Origin: Cellulophaga sp. RHA19
Lineage (GTDB): Bacteria; Bacteroidota; Bacteroidia; Flavobacteriales; Flavobacteriaceae
Reading direction: 5' to 3'
Length of the DNA: 64,000 bases
NCBI RefSeq assembly: GCF_002813425.1
Contig: NZ_PHUL01000001.1
Location: 2,487,001-2,551,000, forward strand
In this document: positions 18,877 through 23,169 of the stretch, piece by piece
Position numbering within the stretch: the first letter of the stretch is position 1
How the letters are laid out: each line of letters begins with the position of its first letter
Program-made: the position numbers and the translations under genes
The notes under the pieces: model-generated
The model's database searches: none
What the model was told of the DNA's origin: nothing
The model's input: only the letters and a program-made list of their open reading frames with translations

Positions 18877-19290
18877 TTAATGTGGTAATTTATCTCTAAG
18901 AATACCATATAAAAATGTTCCTAAGATTGAAAAAGCAATTACAATTAAAATAGGAGCAAAACCTGCGCCTACTAAAGTAAACATAGGTCCAGGACAAGCA
19001 CCTGCTAATGCCCAACCTAAACCAAAAATAATACCACCAAAAAGATACCTGCTAATACTTTTGTTTTTAGGAATAAACTTTATTTCTTCTCCGTGAATAG
19101 ATTTTAATTTATAACGTTTAATAAGTTGTGTAATAATAACACCTAGTCCAACAGCAGAGCCTATAATACCGTACATATGAAAAGACTGTAGTTGAAACAT
19201 CTCATAAATACGAAACCAAGATGCGGCTTCGGACTTAAACATAGTAATACCAAATAAAATGCCGATAAGTAAATATAAAAGGGTTCTCAT
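18877..19290 (-). CDS. YeeE/YedE-like sulfur transporter, second half (DUF6691 type)
   Basis: A 137-residue membrane protein with about four transmembrane helices. Its hallmark is FGLGWALAGACPGPMFTLVGAG, which carries the Cys-Pro-Gly core found in YeeE/YedE thiosulfate and sulfur-compound transporters. The other half of the transporter is encoded four bases upstream, and the two small proteins together equal one full-length YeeE. Family work links such split pairs (often called PmpA/PmpB) to uptake or export of sulfur compounds and to detoxification with rhodanese/ETHE1 enzymes; the exact substrate here is unknown. The pair shares an operator with the CstB-like gene 2 kb away, supporting a common sulfur function. 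Confidence 0.88.
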   Translation of the reverse strand: MRTLLYLLIGILFGITMFKSEAASWFRIYEMFQLQSFHMYGIIGSAVGLGVIITQLIKRYKLKSIHGEEIKFIPKNKSISRYLFGGIIFGLGWALAGACPGPMFTLVGAGFAPILIVIAFSILGTFLYGILRDKLPH

Positions 19291-19294
19291 AGTC

Positions 19295-19852
19295 TTAAAA
19301 AATTAAAGGGTATAATACGTGAATCATAAATAAACCACCAATAAAAAAGCCAATAACAGCTATTAAAGATGGTAACTGTAAGTTACTTAAGCCAGATATT
19401 GCGTGCCCAGATGTGCAGCCACCTGCATACCTAGTTCCAAAACCTACTAAAAGTCCACCTATAGCTAATATTATAATACTTTTTATATCTGTTAAGGCAT
19501 CTAAACTATAAAGTTCTGTTGGTAAGTAAGCATTACCAGCACTAGAAAAGCCAAGTTCTTGTAAATTTTTTATGGTCTCTGGATTTATGTCTACGGCAGT
19601 AGTTTCTGTTAAAAAATTAGCACCAATATAGCCGCCAATAATGGCTCCAATCATCACAATCAAATTCCATCTTTGGTTTTTCCAATCAAACTTAAAAAAG
19701 TCCGACTTTTTATCTGCTCCGCAAATGGTACACAGTGTTCTAAGATTACTAGACATACCAAAGTTTTTACCAACAAAGAGTAATAAAAATAATACTAAGG
19801 CTATTAAGGGGCCAGACACATACCACGGCCAAGGTTGAAAAATTGAATCCAT
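19295..19852 (-). CDS. YeeE/YedE family sulfur transporter, first half
   Basis: A 185-residue inner-membrane protein with about five hydrophobic helices. Near the C-terminus it has the signature LVGFGTRYAGGCTSGHAISG, with the conserved Cys that relays sulfur compounds through YeeE-type channels. A second Cys pair (LCTICG) lies in a cytoplasmic loop near residues 40-45. It begins the two-gene unit and overlaps nothing; the partner starts four bases after its stop. The start codon is 60 bases downstream of the palindrome GTAACTTATGTTAC, which also precedes the CstB-like gene, so both are probably switched on by the neighbouring Crp/Fnr regulator. Confidence 0.9.
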   Translation of the reverse strand: MDSIFQPWPWYVSGPLIALVLFLLLFVGKNFGMSSNLRTLCTICGADKKSDFFKFDWKNQRWNLIVMIGAIIGGYIGANFLTETTAVDINPETIKNLQELGFSSAGNAYLPTELYSLDALTDIKSIIILAIGGLLVGFGTRYAGGCTSGHAISGLSNLQLPSLIAVIGFFIGGLFMIHVLYPLIF

Positions 19853-19881: not shown

Positions 19882-19925
19882 CAAAGTAACTTTATTTTAT
19901 TGAGACGGTAAGTAACTTATGTTAC
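19882..19925 (-). promoter_or_regulatory. Promoter of the YeeE/YedE pair with Crp/Fnr-type operator
   Basis: The palindrome GTAAC-TTAT-GTTAC occupies 19912-19925. On the minus strand it is followed 22 nt later by TTACTTTG (19889-19882), one mismatch from the TAnnTTTG -7 box. There is no TTTG at the -33 position; the operator sits there instead, centred near -40. The same arrangement precedes the CstB-like gene. Confidence 0.7.
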
Positions 19926-19997
19926 TAAGCACAGTAATTTAATGTTTTAGACATTTTTAAACTTAATAGCTTAGTTTTGTGATACTATAATTTATAT

Positions 19998-20996
19998 ATG
20001 GATTCTTTAACGCAAATAGTATTAGGAGCAGCAGTAGGTGAAGCTGTTTTAGGAAAAAAAATAGGAAACAAAGCAATGCTTTATGGTGCTATTGCAGGTA
20101 CAATACCAGATTTAGATACTTTTGCATCTTTTTATACAGATACTGTTACAGGCTTAGAACTACATCGTGGTTTTACACATTCGGTGTTATTTTCAGTTTT
20201 ATTTGCGCCAATTTTTGCGTGGTTGGTTACTAGGTTTGAAAAGTACAAGGATTTTAAAGGTTGGTGTTGGCTTTTTTTTTTAGCATTTGTAACGCACCCA
20301 ATATTAGATGCACATACAACGTGGGGTACACAGTTGTTTTGGCCTTTAGAAAACCGATTGGCATTTAAAACTATTTTTGTTGTAGACCCCTTGTATACAG
20401 TACCATTTTTAGTGTTTCTTATTTTAACAATGTTTCAAAAGAAGACAGATCCTAAACGTAGAAAATACAATAACTTGGGTTTAATACTAAGTAGTAGTTA
20501 TTTGGCGTTAACTTTTGCTTTAAAAAGTGCTGCTTTTTATCAATTTAAAAAACAATTAGAAGAACAAAATATAGCTTATACAGAAATTGAAACAAAACCA
20601 TCTCCCTTAAATACAATTTTATGGACTGCCAATGTAGAGACTAAAAATGCTTATTATATTGGACATTATTCTTTTTTTGATACAAAGCCAATCAAATTTT
20701 CAAAATACACTAAAAACCATCATTTATTAGGTGATTTACTTAACAATACTAAAGTACAAAGGATGATTGCTATTAGTAAAGGTTGGTATACCGTAGATAT
20801 TTATAACGATAACTTGTATTTTAATGATTTGCGTTTTGGAACATTAAGTATGAATTATAAGGCACACGATTTTGTTTTTAGCTACAAGATAAACACTTAT
20901 GAGAATGGGACTATTGTTTTTGAAGAAAAGCCAAAAAATAGAGCTCAGGCTAAAAAACTACTAGCAGATTTGTGGAAACGTATTAAAGGTAATTGA
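19998..20996 (+). CDS. YdjM/YbcI-type membrane-bound metal-dependent hydrolase
   Basis: A 332-residue inner-membrane protein of the LexA-binding, inner membrane-associated hydrolase family (PF04307). The conserved N-terminal motifs are present: MDSLTQIVLGAAVGEAVLG, then GAIAGTIPDLD with its metal-ligand Asp pair, HRGFTHSVLF with two His, and THPILDAHTTWGTQ. About five membrane helices occupy the first 190 residues, and a soluble tail of about 140 residues follows. The substrate is unknown for the family. A TAGTTTTG box at 19972-19979 may be its -7 element. It is divergent from the sulfur transporter genes, with the operator between them, so it could be affected by the same regulator, but nothing proves this. 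Confidence 0.88.
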   Translation: MDSLTQIVLGAAVGEAVLGKKIGNKAMLYGAIAGTIPDLDTFASFYTDTVTGLELHRGFTHSVLFSVLFAPIFAWLVTRFEKYKDFKGWCWLFFLAFVTHPILDAHTTWGTQLFWPLENRLAFKTIFVVDPLYTVPFLVFLILTMFQKKTDPKRRKYNNLGLILSSSYLALTFALKSAAFYQFKKQLEEQNIAYTEIETKPSPLNTILWTANVETKNAYYIGHYSFFDTKPIKFSKYTKNHHLLGDLLNNTKVQRMIAISKGWYTVDIYNDNLYFNDLRFGTLSMNYKAHDFVFSYKINTYENGTIVFEEKPKNRAQAKKLLADLWKRIKGN

Positions 20997-21005
20997 TTAA
21001 AAAAG

Positions 21006-21049
21006 AAAAATGCTAAAGCGATAAAATTAATAAAGCCTTAGCATTTTTT
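21006..21049 (+). terminator. Terminator between the YdjM-like and CstB-like genes
   Basis: AAAAATGCTAA (21006-21016) pairs perfectly with TTAGCATTTTT (21038-21048), with extra T residues after it. The 21-nt loop may fold further. Convergent genes on both sides make it likely to act on both strands. Confidence 0.8.
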
Positions 21050-21054
21050 ATTTT

Positions 21055-22461
21055 TTACAATGTAGATGGGCAAACATAGTTGCTTACAGGTATTTTAATA
21101 TCTTTTATAGCATTAAAACCTCCGTTTACATTAATTAAATTATGTATGCCTCTGCTTTTTAAGATAGATGCAGCAACCATACTTCTGTAACCACTAGCAC
21201 AGTGAATATAAAAGTTTTCATTAGAAGGAAAATCTTTTATATACTTATTTATAAAATCTAAAGGAGTATTAATAGCTCCAATCATATGTTCAGAAAGGTA
21301 CTCACTCTCTTTTCTAACATCATAAACTTTGGTACTACTATCTAATTCATTACTTAAATTAGACGCAGTTGTAGTATTCACAGTATCATACTCTTTAGCG
21401 GCTTTTTTCCAAGCATTAAATCCGCCTTTTAAATACCCTAAAGTATTGTCAAATCCAACTCTAGATAATCTTATAACTGTTTCTTCTTCCTTACCTTCTG
21501 GAGTAACCAAAATTATAGGTTGTTCTACATCTGCAATTAATGCGCCAACCCAAGGAGCAAAACTACCATCTAAACCAATAAAAATAGATCTAGGAATGTG
21601 CCCTTTTGCAAAATCGTCTTGGTGTCTAACATCTAAAATAATAGCTCCTGTTCTGTTAGCTAAAGCTTCAAGCATATCTGGGTCTAATGCTATTGTACCT
21701 CTTTTTATAATATCGGCAATATCATCATATCCTTCTTTATTCATTTTTACATTTAACGGAAAGTAACTAGGAGGCGGTAATAAACCATCTGTAACCTCTT
21801 TTATAAACTCAGCTTTAGTCATATTAGCACGTAAAGCATAGTTCGTATTCTTTTGGTTACCAAGCGTATCAACGGTGTCTTTACTTAGGTTTTTTCCGCA
21901 AGCAGAACCAGCTCCGTGTGCAGGGTATACTAAAACAGTATCTGCTAAAGGCATAATTTTATTACGTAAACTATCAAACAAAAAGCCAGCTAAATCTTCT
22001 TCTGTAATTTCACCTGCTTTTTGCGCTAAATCTGGCCTACCTACATCACCTAAAAATAAGGTGTCTCCGCTAAAAATAGCGTGGTCGTTTCCGTTTTCAT
22101 CTTTTAAAAGATAGGTAGTACTTTCCATTGTATGACCAGGCGTATGTAAGGCAATTATTGTAACATTACCAATTTTAAATTCCTGATTGTCTTTAGCTAT
22201 AATAGCATCAAAAGAAGGGTCTGCCATAGGTCCGTATACGATAGGAGCTCCAGTTTTTTGAGCTAATGTAACGTGTCCGCTAACAAAATCTGCGTGAAAA
22301 TGAGTTTCAAAAATATATTTAATTGTAGCGTTATTCTCTTTAGCTCTTGTGGTGTAAGGAGAGGTTTCTCTTAAAGGATCTATAATAGCAGCCTCGCCAT
22401 TACTTTCTATGTAGTATGCGCCTTGAGATAGGCAGCCTGTATATATTTGTTCAATAATCAT
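21055..22461 (-). CDS. CstB-like persulfide dioxygenase-sulfurtransferase (metallo-beta-lactamase fold plus two rhodanese domains)
   Basis: A 468-residue cytosolic enzyme that probably oxidises persulfides to sulfite and transfers sulfur to make thiosulfate, detoxifying reactive sulfur. Residues about 1-240 are an ETHE1-type metallo-beta-lactamase domain: THFHADFVSGH (H54, H56, D58, H63), HTPGHT, FSGDTLFLGDVGRPDL and PAHGAGS. The middle rhodanese-like domain (about 260-350) has VTPEGKEEE where the active Cys loop should be, so it is degenerate. The C-terminal rhodanese (about 365-468) has the active C421 in HCASGYRSM. This order (dioxygenase, inactive rhodanese, active rhodanese) is that of staphylococcal CstB. 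Its promoter carries the Crp/Fnr-type palindrome, and the regulator gene lies directly upstream. Confidence 0.92.
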   Translation of the reverse strand: MIIEQIYTGCLSQGAYYIESNGEAAIIDPLRETSPYTTRAKENNATIKYIFETHFHADFVSGHVTLAQKTGAPIVYGPMADPSFDAIIAKDNQEFKIGNVTIIALHTPGHTMESTTYLLKDENGNDHAIFSGDTLFLGDVGRPDLAQKAGEITEEDLAGFLFDSLRNKIMPLADTVLVYPAHGAGSACGKNLSKDTVDTLGNQKNTNYALRANMTKAEFIKEVTDGLLPPPSYFPLNVKMNKEGYDDIADIIKRGTIALDPDMLEALANRTGAIILDVRHQDDFAKGHIPRSIFIGLDGSFAPWVGALIADVEQPIILVTPEGKEEETVIRLSRVGFDNTLGYLKGGFNAWKKAAKEYDTVNTTTASNLSNELDSSTKVYDVRKESEYLSEHMIGAINTPLDFINKYIKDFPSNENFYIHCASGYRSMVAASILKSRGIHNLINVNGGFNAIKDIKIPVSNYVCPSTL

Positions 22462-22487
22462 AACTATGTAGTTTTAAATTTGGACTA

Positions 22488-22531
22488 CAAACTTATGAGT
22501 TATTAATATGTGTTACAGTAACTTATGTTAC
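22488..22531 (-). promoter_or_regulatory. Promoter of the CstB-like gene with Crp/Fnr-type operator
   Basis: The palindrome GTAACTTATGTTAC at 22518-22531 is identical, base for base, to the one before the YeeE/YedE pair. On the minus strand TAAGTTTG (22495-22488), a perfect TAnnTTTG box, follows after exactly 22 nt, the same gap as at the other promoter. An extra half-site makes GTTAC-A-GTAAC at 22512-22522. The start codon is 57 nt downstream of the palindrome. Confidence 0.78.
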
Positions 22532-22533
22532 AC

Positions 22534-23169
22534 TTAACTTAGATTTATGATTTTAAGGCTATTTCTATGTAATTCTATTTTACCAAGTTTCTCTAATTTT
22601 TTTAATAGTCTAGATATTACTACTCTAGAGCTATGAAGATCATAAGCAATTTCTTGATGCGTTTTGTTTATTGTAATGCTTTTGGTTACACGAGACATTT
22701 CTTTTAAGTAATTTAAAAGTCGTTGATCCATATTTAAAAAAGCAACACTATCTACTGTTTGTAGGAGCTCGTTAATACGATTGTGATAGCTTTCAAAAAC
22801 AAAATCTCTCCAAGATTTATATTTGCTGGTCCATATTTCCATTTTCTCTATAGGAACCATAATTAACTTAGTGTTAGTCTCTGCTATGGCTCTAATTTCA
22901 CTTTTTTTATGTCCAATACAACAAGCCATTGTCATTGTGCAAGTTTCTCCTTTTTCTAAATAGTAGAGTAGTAGTTCATCTCCATCTTTATCTTCTCTAA
23001 GTATTTTTATGGCACCAGAAACTAGCAAAGGCATAGATTTTACATAGTCTCCTATTTCTATCATTTTAAAACCCTCAGGAACTTCTTTATAGGTTGCAAC
23101 TTCAAGAATTTCTTGTAATAATTCTTTTTCAAATAAATTACCGTAGCTGTTTTTTAGTTCCTCTATCAT
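22534..23169 (-). CDS. Crp/Fnr family transcriptional regulator (candidate sulfur-stress activator)
   Basis: A 211-residue regulator with an N-terminal cyclic-nucleotide-binding-like domain (about 20-115) and a C-terminal winged helix (about 145-210). The recognition region reads THQEIAYDLHSSRVVISRLLKKLEKLG, the usual Crp/Fnr helix-turn-helix. It lacks the Fnr N-terminal iron-sulfur cysteines. Instead, three cysteines cluster where the ligand pocket would be, in ETCTMTMACCIGHKKSEIRA (about residues 76-95), which suggests a thiol or metal sensor; that is inference. It lies between the CstB-like gene and its own TTTG-type promoter. The 5-4-5 palindrome in front of both sulfur units has the geometry of an Fnr box, making this protein the best candidate to bind it. 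Confidence 0.9.
   Translation of the reverse strand: MIEELKNSYGNLFEKELLQEILEVATYKEVPEGFKMIEIGDYVKSMPLLVSGAIKILREDKDGDELLLYYLEKGETCTMTMACCIGHKKSEIRAIAETNTKLIMVPIEKMEIWTSKYKSWRDFVFESYHNRINELLQTVDSVAFLNMDQRLLNYLKEMSRVTKSITINKTHQEIAYDLHSSRVVISRLLKKLEKLGKIELHRNSLKIINLS

Follow-up and report, generated by a model that had tools for sequence, protein, structure and literature searches.

A conserved palindrome at fixed promoter spacing points to a sulfur regulon of a Crp/Fnr-family protein in Bacteroidota

The 64,000-nucleotide stretch of Cellulophaga sp. RHA19 DNA analysed here (the window) carries the same 14-bp palindrome, GTAACTTATGTTAC, in front of two sulfur-related transcription units, a YeeE/YedE transporter operon and a gene for a metallo-β-lactamase (MBL)-rhodanese enzyme, and a gene for a Crp/Fnr-family protein (hereafter crp) adjoins the second. 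The locus raises the question of whether the palindrome is an operator, which protein would bind it, and what signal that protein would read. A preliminary description had interpreted the two copies as the operator pair of a class II Crp/Fnr regulon. The shared, fixed-spaced 14-mer is real, and comparison of sequences across genomes supports the interpretation in its main points. In particular, the comparisons establish a predicted operator, its fixed promoter spacing, a predicted regulon and its co-occurrence with the regulator, and the crp product is probably a class II activator that coordinates a sulfide/sulfane-sulfur regulon in response to a sulfane-sulfur signal. The features concerned are listed below.

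18877–19290, minus strand: second half-transporter, DUF6691/YeeE-like, 137 aa (PF20398, 49.7 bits; PF04143, 36.5 bits)
19295–19852, minus strand: YeeE/YedE half-transporter, 185 aa (PF04143, 62.6 bits)
19882–19889, minus strand: −7 box of the YeeE operon, TTACTTTG, 22 nt past the operator (consensus TAnnTTTG, from passages of PMC9723704)
19912–19925, minus strand: predicted operator of the YeeE/DUF6691 operon, GTAACATAAGTTAC as read on the minus strand
21055–22461, minus strand: CstB-like MBL-rhodanese-rhodanese enzyme, 468 aa (PF00753; PF00581 in two stretches; full-length matches to 3tp9 and 3r2u)
22488–22495, minus strand: −7 box of the MBL-rhodanese gene, TAAGTTTG, 22 nt past the operator
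22518–22531, minus strand: predicted operator of the MBL-rhodanese gene, GTAACATAAGTTAC as read on the minus strand
22534–23169, minus strand: regulator of the Crp/Fnr family, 211 aa, proposed to bind both operators (PF00027, PF13545 and PF00325 above cut-off)
22609–22629, minus strand: regulator codons 181–187, recognition helix core SRVVISR (from conservation among 81 orthologues and comparison with NtcA)
22918–22941, minus strand: regulator codons 77–84, containing C77, C83 and C84, the only cysteines of the protein

Occurrence and placement of the palindrome

As the preliminary description had stated, GTAACTTATGTTAC occurs in the 64-kb window at 19912–19925 and 22518–22531 only; the whole genome searched (a single contig of 3.93 Mb) holds no further copy. 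The less specific pattern GTAAC-N4-GTTAC has 10 sites in the genome, only two of which contain the spacer of GTAACTTATGTTAC, and none of 100 dinucleotide shuffles of the window contains two copies of the 14-mer (mean 0.00). The reported 22 nt between each site and its minus-strand −7 box (TTACTTTG and TAAGTTTG) is correct, while the distances to the start codons need a small correction: 59 and 56 nt intervene, the earlier values of 60 and 57 having counted the A of ATG. The adjacency of a Crp/Fnr gene is likewise upheld: crp (22534–23169), which lies upstream of the MBL gene and shares its strand, stops 2 nt short of the second site.

Conservation was examined in two sets of loci. For the first set, regions of up to 18 kb were taken around 80 relatives of Crp with roughly 50% identity or higher; they come from 73 Flavobacteriaceae genomes, each of a different genus, and counts for this set include the window itself (81 loci). 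The second set comprises 80 named loci, with six repeats of the first set removed. Exact GTAAC-N4-GTTAC sites were counted within 200 nt upstream of each gene, and 59 palindromes with the same letters in other orders served as controls. MBL and YeeE matches were excluded when their identity was under 45%, when they had no start or when too little DNA was available upstream. The site is present upstream of the MBL gene at 28 of 48 loci in the first set (controls at most 1) and 41 of 56 in the second (controls at most 2), giving 69 of 104 against 2 for the best control. Upstream of YeeE the figures are 12 of 28 and 17 of 24, or 29 of 52 overall, with all controls at 0. The preliminary expectation that orthologous promoters would carry the palindrome is therefore borne out. 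In addition, a site lies within 120 nt past the crp stop codon in 37 of the 81 loci of the first set (controls 0) and upstream of crp itself in five loci. The N4 spacer bases are free to vary among loci.

The distance to the promoter is sharply defined. On both strands, the sequence downstream of each exact site was scanned for the TTTG of the 8-base box. In the first set it lies at a 22-nt gap 94 times among 316 site-orientations, against 6 times for the next most frequent gap; in the second set the figures are 124 among 420, against 7. For the complete TAnnTTTG, the second set gives 106 cases at gap 22 and at most one at any other gap. The result does not depend on assuming the half-site: GTAAC heads the 5-4-5 palindromes that have TTTG at gap 22 (92 versus 6 and 138 versus 5, in a ranking that kept duplicate loci), and in the same ranking of 40 more distant loci it stands at 6 versus 5 for GTGAT. 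A coincidence or a dispersed repeat has in its favour the background-level frequency of the bare pattern across the genome; it is contradicted by the shuffles, by the conservation and by the spacing, and we regard it as having a negligible chance of being correct. As for the earlier expectation that the palindrome would not turn up at random sites and rates, the rate of the bare pattern is indeed near background, and the placement is precise to one base.

The −7 box of sigma-A promoters in Flavobacterium psychrophilum spans −12 to −5, as given in passages of PMC9723704. If this position holds here, the operator spans −48 to −35 with its centre at −41.5, close to the −40 proposed previously, and fits class II geometry, in which a site near −41.5 accompanies an intact −7 element. 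When 198 promoters are aligned, T at −49 (82%) and G at −33 (57%) stand out most among the further positions, indicating that the −33 element is reduced rather than absent. Consistent with this, the claim that both promoters lack TTTG at −33 holds for the YeeE promoter, which has no G at −33, but not entirely for the MBL promoter, which retains it. The comparison with Fnr/Crp class II activation is supported as to position but not as to sequence, the half-site resembling the GTAN8TAC of NtcA rather than an Fnr- or Crp-type half-site.

BigR, SqrR and CstR have been reported as repressors that leave DNA when sulfur compounds appear. The same protein might, by analogy, act at the same operator as a repressor that covers the −35 region until sulfur compounds release it. 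The site does overlap the −33 region, and BigR of Acinetobacter baumannii represses yeeE-yedE-pdo2, as described in parts of PMC7315123. However, contact with RNA polymerase is the better match to the one-base-precise distance to the −7 box, the weak −33 element and the class II position, and a repressor would presumably tolerate other positions. We thus consider repression unlikely, and the architecture points to activation instead.

The YeeE operon shares its intergenic region with a divergent gene for a YdjM-type membrane protein (19998–20996). We rejected the palindrome as an operator for that gene, because the plus strand has no −7 box at gap 22. A further GTAAC-N4-GTTAC site, at genome C1:2705698–2705711 (L009), was set aside since it lies in a GC-rich hairpin followed by T's and is terminator-like by eye.

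Composition of the predicted regulon

The MBL-rhodanese-rhodanese enzyme encoded at 21055–22461 has the CstB-type domain order over its full length, an MBL domain (PF00753) followed by two rhodanese stretches (PF00581), and its residues 1–452 match 3r2u with an E value of 2.7e-60; it is probably a persulfide dioxygenase. The YeeE/YedE operon consists of two genes, 19295–19852 and 18877–19290, on the minus strand.

With up to two mismatches allowed, the whole promoter pattern matches 12 places in this genome, of which six are promoters with a gene 46–64 nt downstream and six lie inside open reading frames (ORFs). Allowing three mismatches gave 96 places in all, against 68 for the control. The six promoters precede the MBL-rhodanese gene, YeeE, a rhodanese-thioredoxin-TPMT operon, cydA, a DUF983 gene and a fatty-acid hydroxylase gene, all belonging to families that recur in other loci or are of rhodanese type; two of the six have poor boxes (TAATTTTA and GATATTTA). 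The link between the YeeE/YedE pair and the CstB-like enzyme thus stands, but the regulon comprises at least six operons here, not two.

Three of these promoters have features of their own. Immediately after the rhodanese-thioredoxin-TPMT operon comes cydA, which has an operator variant of its own (genome C1:2570645–2572056; L336, L330), an arrangement suggestive of one response that includes both cytochrome bd and thiol methylation. The DUF983 gene (L328, genome C1:1564003–1564046) has a variant operator with a GTGAC half, and its family has 14 boxed sites, that is, sites followed by the −7 box, elsewhere. The fatty-acid hydroxylase (PF04116) operator is at genome C1:2616992–2617035 (L337/L008), and relatives of the gene are boxed in seven other loci.

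Across both sets, 212 boxed sites precede an ORF, and 204 of these ORFs belong to recurrent or sulfur-related families, the remaining 8 being unexplained or spurious. Specifically, single-linkage clustering of the ORFs, with each cluster named from one representative, gave TauE/SafE (54), MBL-rhodanese (51), YeeE (23), DUF983 (14), outer-membrane efflux protein (11), SulP (11), fatty-acid hydroxylase (7), Tll0287-like/cytochrome c (7), YgaP-like transmembrane protein (7), crp itself (5), SQR-like (4), cydA (3) and NrfD/4Fe-4S (3). Single cases are a further SQR-like protein, a SorA-like molybdoenzyme, and, both identified from sequence, a thioredoxin and a peroxiredoxin; the SQR and SorA matches fall below the NCBIfam cut-offs. 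The DUF983 representative (L143) has no Pfam match, whereas the member in this genome has one.

The Crp/Fnr protein and its likely signal

The protein encoded at 22534–23169 belongs to the Crp/Fnr superfamily (PF00027, 29.8 bits against a cut-off of 27.5; PF13545, 35.9 bits against 27), and its AlphaFold model has the Crp fold (mean predicted local distance difference test score (pLDDT) 88; predicted template modelling score (pTM) 0.64). Its closest named relative, in a listing that may omit the source genome and very near ones, is from C. fucicola (85% identical). In the recognition helix SRVVISR, R182, S186 and R187 are present in 81 of 81 orthologues and V183 in 80. GTAAC-N4-GTTAC fits the NtcA site GTAN8TAC, the helix compares with STRVTVTR of NtcA, and each of the 30 rows in A1 has an NtcA match of E 1e-3 or better.

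The CRP loop that holds cAMP includes a cAMP-contacting Glu. The three cysteines of the regulator align with this loop and are nearly invariant (C77 in 81, C83 in 79 and C84 in 78 of 81 orthologues), and Met79, present in 79 of 81, aligns with the ligand-contacting Glu. Identity with CRP was rejected on this substitution and on the NCBIfam equivalog score (58 of the required 266 bits), and identity with NtcA on its equivalog score (47.1 of 244.95 bits). FNR has an N-terminal cysteine cluster for [4Fe-4S] and recognizes TTGAT-N4-ATCAA; the present protein, with cysteines at 77, 83 and 84 only and a GTAAC half-site, is not FNR.

The operator also follows the regulator across genomes. A good Crp orthologue is lacking in 25 Flavobacteriaceae genomes, 17 with no match at E 1e-20 and 8 with a distant match; completeness is 90% or more and contamination 5% or less in 15 of the 25. 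An MBL relative is present in 21 of the 25, and none of the 21 usable MBL upstream regions carries the site in exact or degenerate form; two of these relatives are only 35–36% identical, and a 45% filter would give 0 of 19. Site density averages 2.22 per Mb among the 72 genomes whose orthologue is strong, 1.40 among the 23 where it is weaker and 0.67 among the 25 that lack a good one, the reversed control showing a smaller fall (3.03, 2.32 and 1.96). These observations point to the 22534–23169 protein as the one that binds the operator. Binding by another Crp/Fnr paralogue is conceivable in that as many as four Crp matches at E 1e-20 occur in some relatives and Crp/Fnr proteins can share sites, but this genome has one such match only, the sites adjoin crp in 37 of 81 loci, and they are missing from the MBL promoters of genomes without the regulator; we judge it improbable.

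In more distant members of the phylum, Glu often occupies position 183, and the half-sites change to GTGAC or GTGAT. Among loci with boxed sites, a GTGA half accompanies 17 of 18 Glu183 regulators versus 36 of 157 Val183 regulators (six duplicate named loci included). An alignment of 14 Glu183 relatives shows no variation at C77 or C83. In a 169-regulator tree, residue 183 changes about four times, giving three to four independent pairs, of which about two agree with covariation, none opposes it and one shows no difference.

A more distant group of regulators (L256, L259–L261, L263–L265, L267 and L268) has the motif SCIMS, keeps C77 alone and has Val in the helix. No boxed exact GTAAC site was found in the nine Val183 loci of this C77-only group, which probably serves another regulon.

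With at least two conserved cysteines in the regulator and persulfide-handling genes in its predicted regulon, the content of that regulon suggests that the cysteines sense sulfane sulfur. An activator of the same kind at the same operator could instead read an iron-sulfur cluster, a disulfide, NO, O2, sulfite or another ligand. Sulfur is indicated by the regulon alone, metal binding or disulfide formation is feasible with three cysteines, oxygen or NO would also be compatible with cydA and crp-type control, and two paralogues (L116 and L118) do not have C83 and C84. On the other hand, persulfide, rhodanese, sulfite-export and sulfate/thiosulfate-transport families dominate the gene content, and the N-terminal Fnr-type cysteine set is absent. 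A different signal is accordingly possible, though distinctly less probable than sulfane sulfur.

Several observations weigh against a sulfane-sulfur-responsive activator acting at this operator. GTAAC-N4-GTTAC is not in excess genome-wide (10 sites versus 7 for the reversed control), and in the genomes of many relatives it is at or below that control. Genome-wide over-representation was therefore dropped as a test; the pattern is non-random in position, not in number, and the analysis relied on position and co-occurrence. The exact site is missing upstream of 35 of 104 MBL and 23 of 52 YeeE genes, many of these upstream regions holding a site with a single changed base. The density of the control also drops in genomes without the regulator, from 3.03 to 1.96 per Mb (p 0.012). 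Neither DUF983 nor the fatty-acid hydroxylase is evidently connected with sulfur. Once descent is taken into account on the 169-regulator tree, helix-operator covariation is not significant, and a regulator at L170:9001–12007, 69% identical and with Glu in the helix, has two boxed sites of GTAAC type; strict covariation was rejected on both grounds. Near the cysteines the AlphaFold model is less sure (pLDDT 65 at residues 81–90), and the paralogues L116 and L118, despite the loss of C83 and C84, adjoin boxed sites, in genomes that carry other copies of the regulator.

Proposed mechanism and comparison with known systems

We propose that a dimer of the regulator binds GTAAC-N4-GTTAC, centred at −41.5, through its NtcA-like recognition helix, and would thereby activate, in class II fashion, sigma-A promoters that keep the −7 box TAnnTTTG and have a reduced −33 element. 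The regulon in this genome would comprise the CstB-like persulfide dioxygenase, the YeeE/YedE transporter, the rhodanese-thioredoxin-TPMT operon, cytochrome bd, DUF983 and the fatty-acid hydroxylase, with TauE exporters, SulP permeases and SQR-like enzymes added in relatives. C77, C83 and C84 would most likely read sulfane sulfur, in the form of polysulfide or persulfide, as the signal, and its uptake by these cysteines may switch the protein into a class II activator of sulfide-defence genes in much of Bacteroidota.

A class II Crp/Fnr activator is a known kind of regulator; its combination with a sulfur regulon and this cysteine motif was not found described in the literature searched. The search likewise returned no description of the operator or regulator, although one may exist in the Matsui et al. 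(2013) survey of target motifs of Crp/Fnr proteins, and no account of sulfide or polysulfide sensing in Bacteroidota. We see roughly even chances that the protein represents a Crp/Fnr-fold sulfane-sulfur sensor with C77, C83 and C84 in a cAMP-type loop, in which, in outlying lineages, a Val/Glu change in the helix accompanies a GTAAC/GTGAY change in the operator. The analysis yields a named regulator, an exact operator, a predicted regulon and candidate sensor cysteines for Bacteroidota, together with a naturally occurring range of recognition-helix and operator variants. The one-base-precise promoter architecture is usable for annotating regulons in marine flavobacteria.

The best-scoring solved relative of the family profile is 3dv8, a Crp/Fnr regulator of Eubacterium rectale (86 bits), which has cysteines aligned to C77 and C83 but its own helix core, SHREVITR, in the alignment; we found no function or operator for it. 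The MBL-rhodanese-rhodanese enzyme resembles Staphylococcus aureus CstB over its full length, judging from 3r2u, which we take to be CstB. CstR, the regulator of S. aureus CstB, is a CsoR-like repressor, and BigR is an ArsR-type repressor. The BigR and FisR regulons of A. baumannii similarly unite yeeE-yedE with a persulfide dioxygenase, TauE and SQR, and passages of one report describe repression of the yeeE-yedE-pdo2 operon by BigR and a CydAB that is upregulated by sulfide and refractory to it (PMC7315123). Unlike the present regulator, neither BigR nor FisR is a Crp/Fnr protein, FisR being a sigma-54 activator. E. coli CRP and FNR share the superfamily, dyad sites of 5-4-5 or similar form and class II activation, but their half-sites differ from GTAAC. 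Another parallel is NtcA of cyanobacteria, which shares the Crp/Fnr fold and the helix core S-[ST]-R-V-x-[VI]-[ST]-R. NtcA-activated promoters carry GTAN8TAC at about −41.5, as here, and match class II promoters, according to passages of PMC3898017. NtcA, however, answers to 2-oxoglutarate and nitrogen status, whereas the regulator described here sits with sulfur genes, has cysteines in place of the ligand loop, and would work with a Bacteroidetes −7 box.

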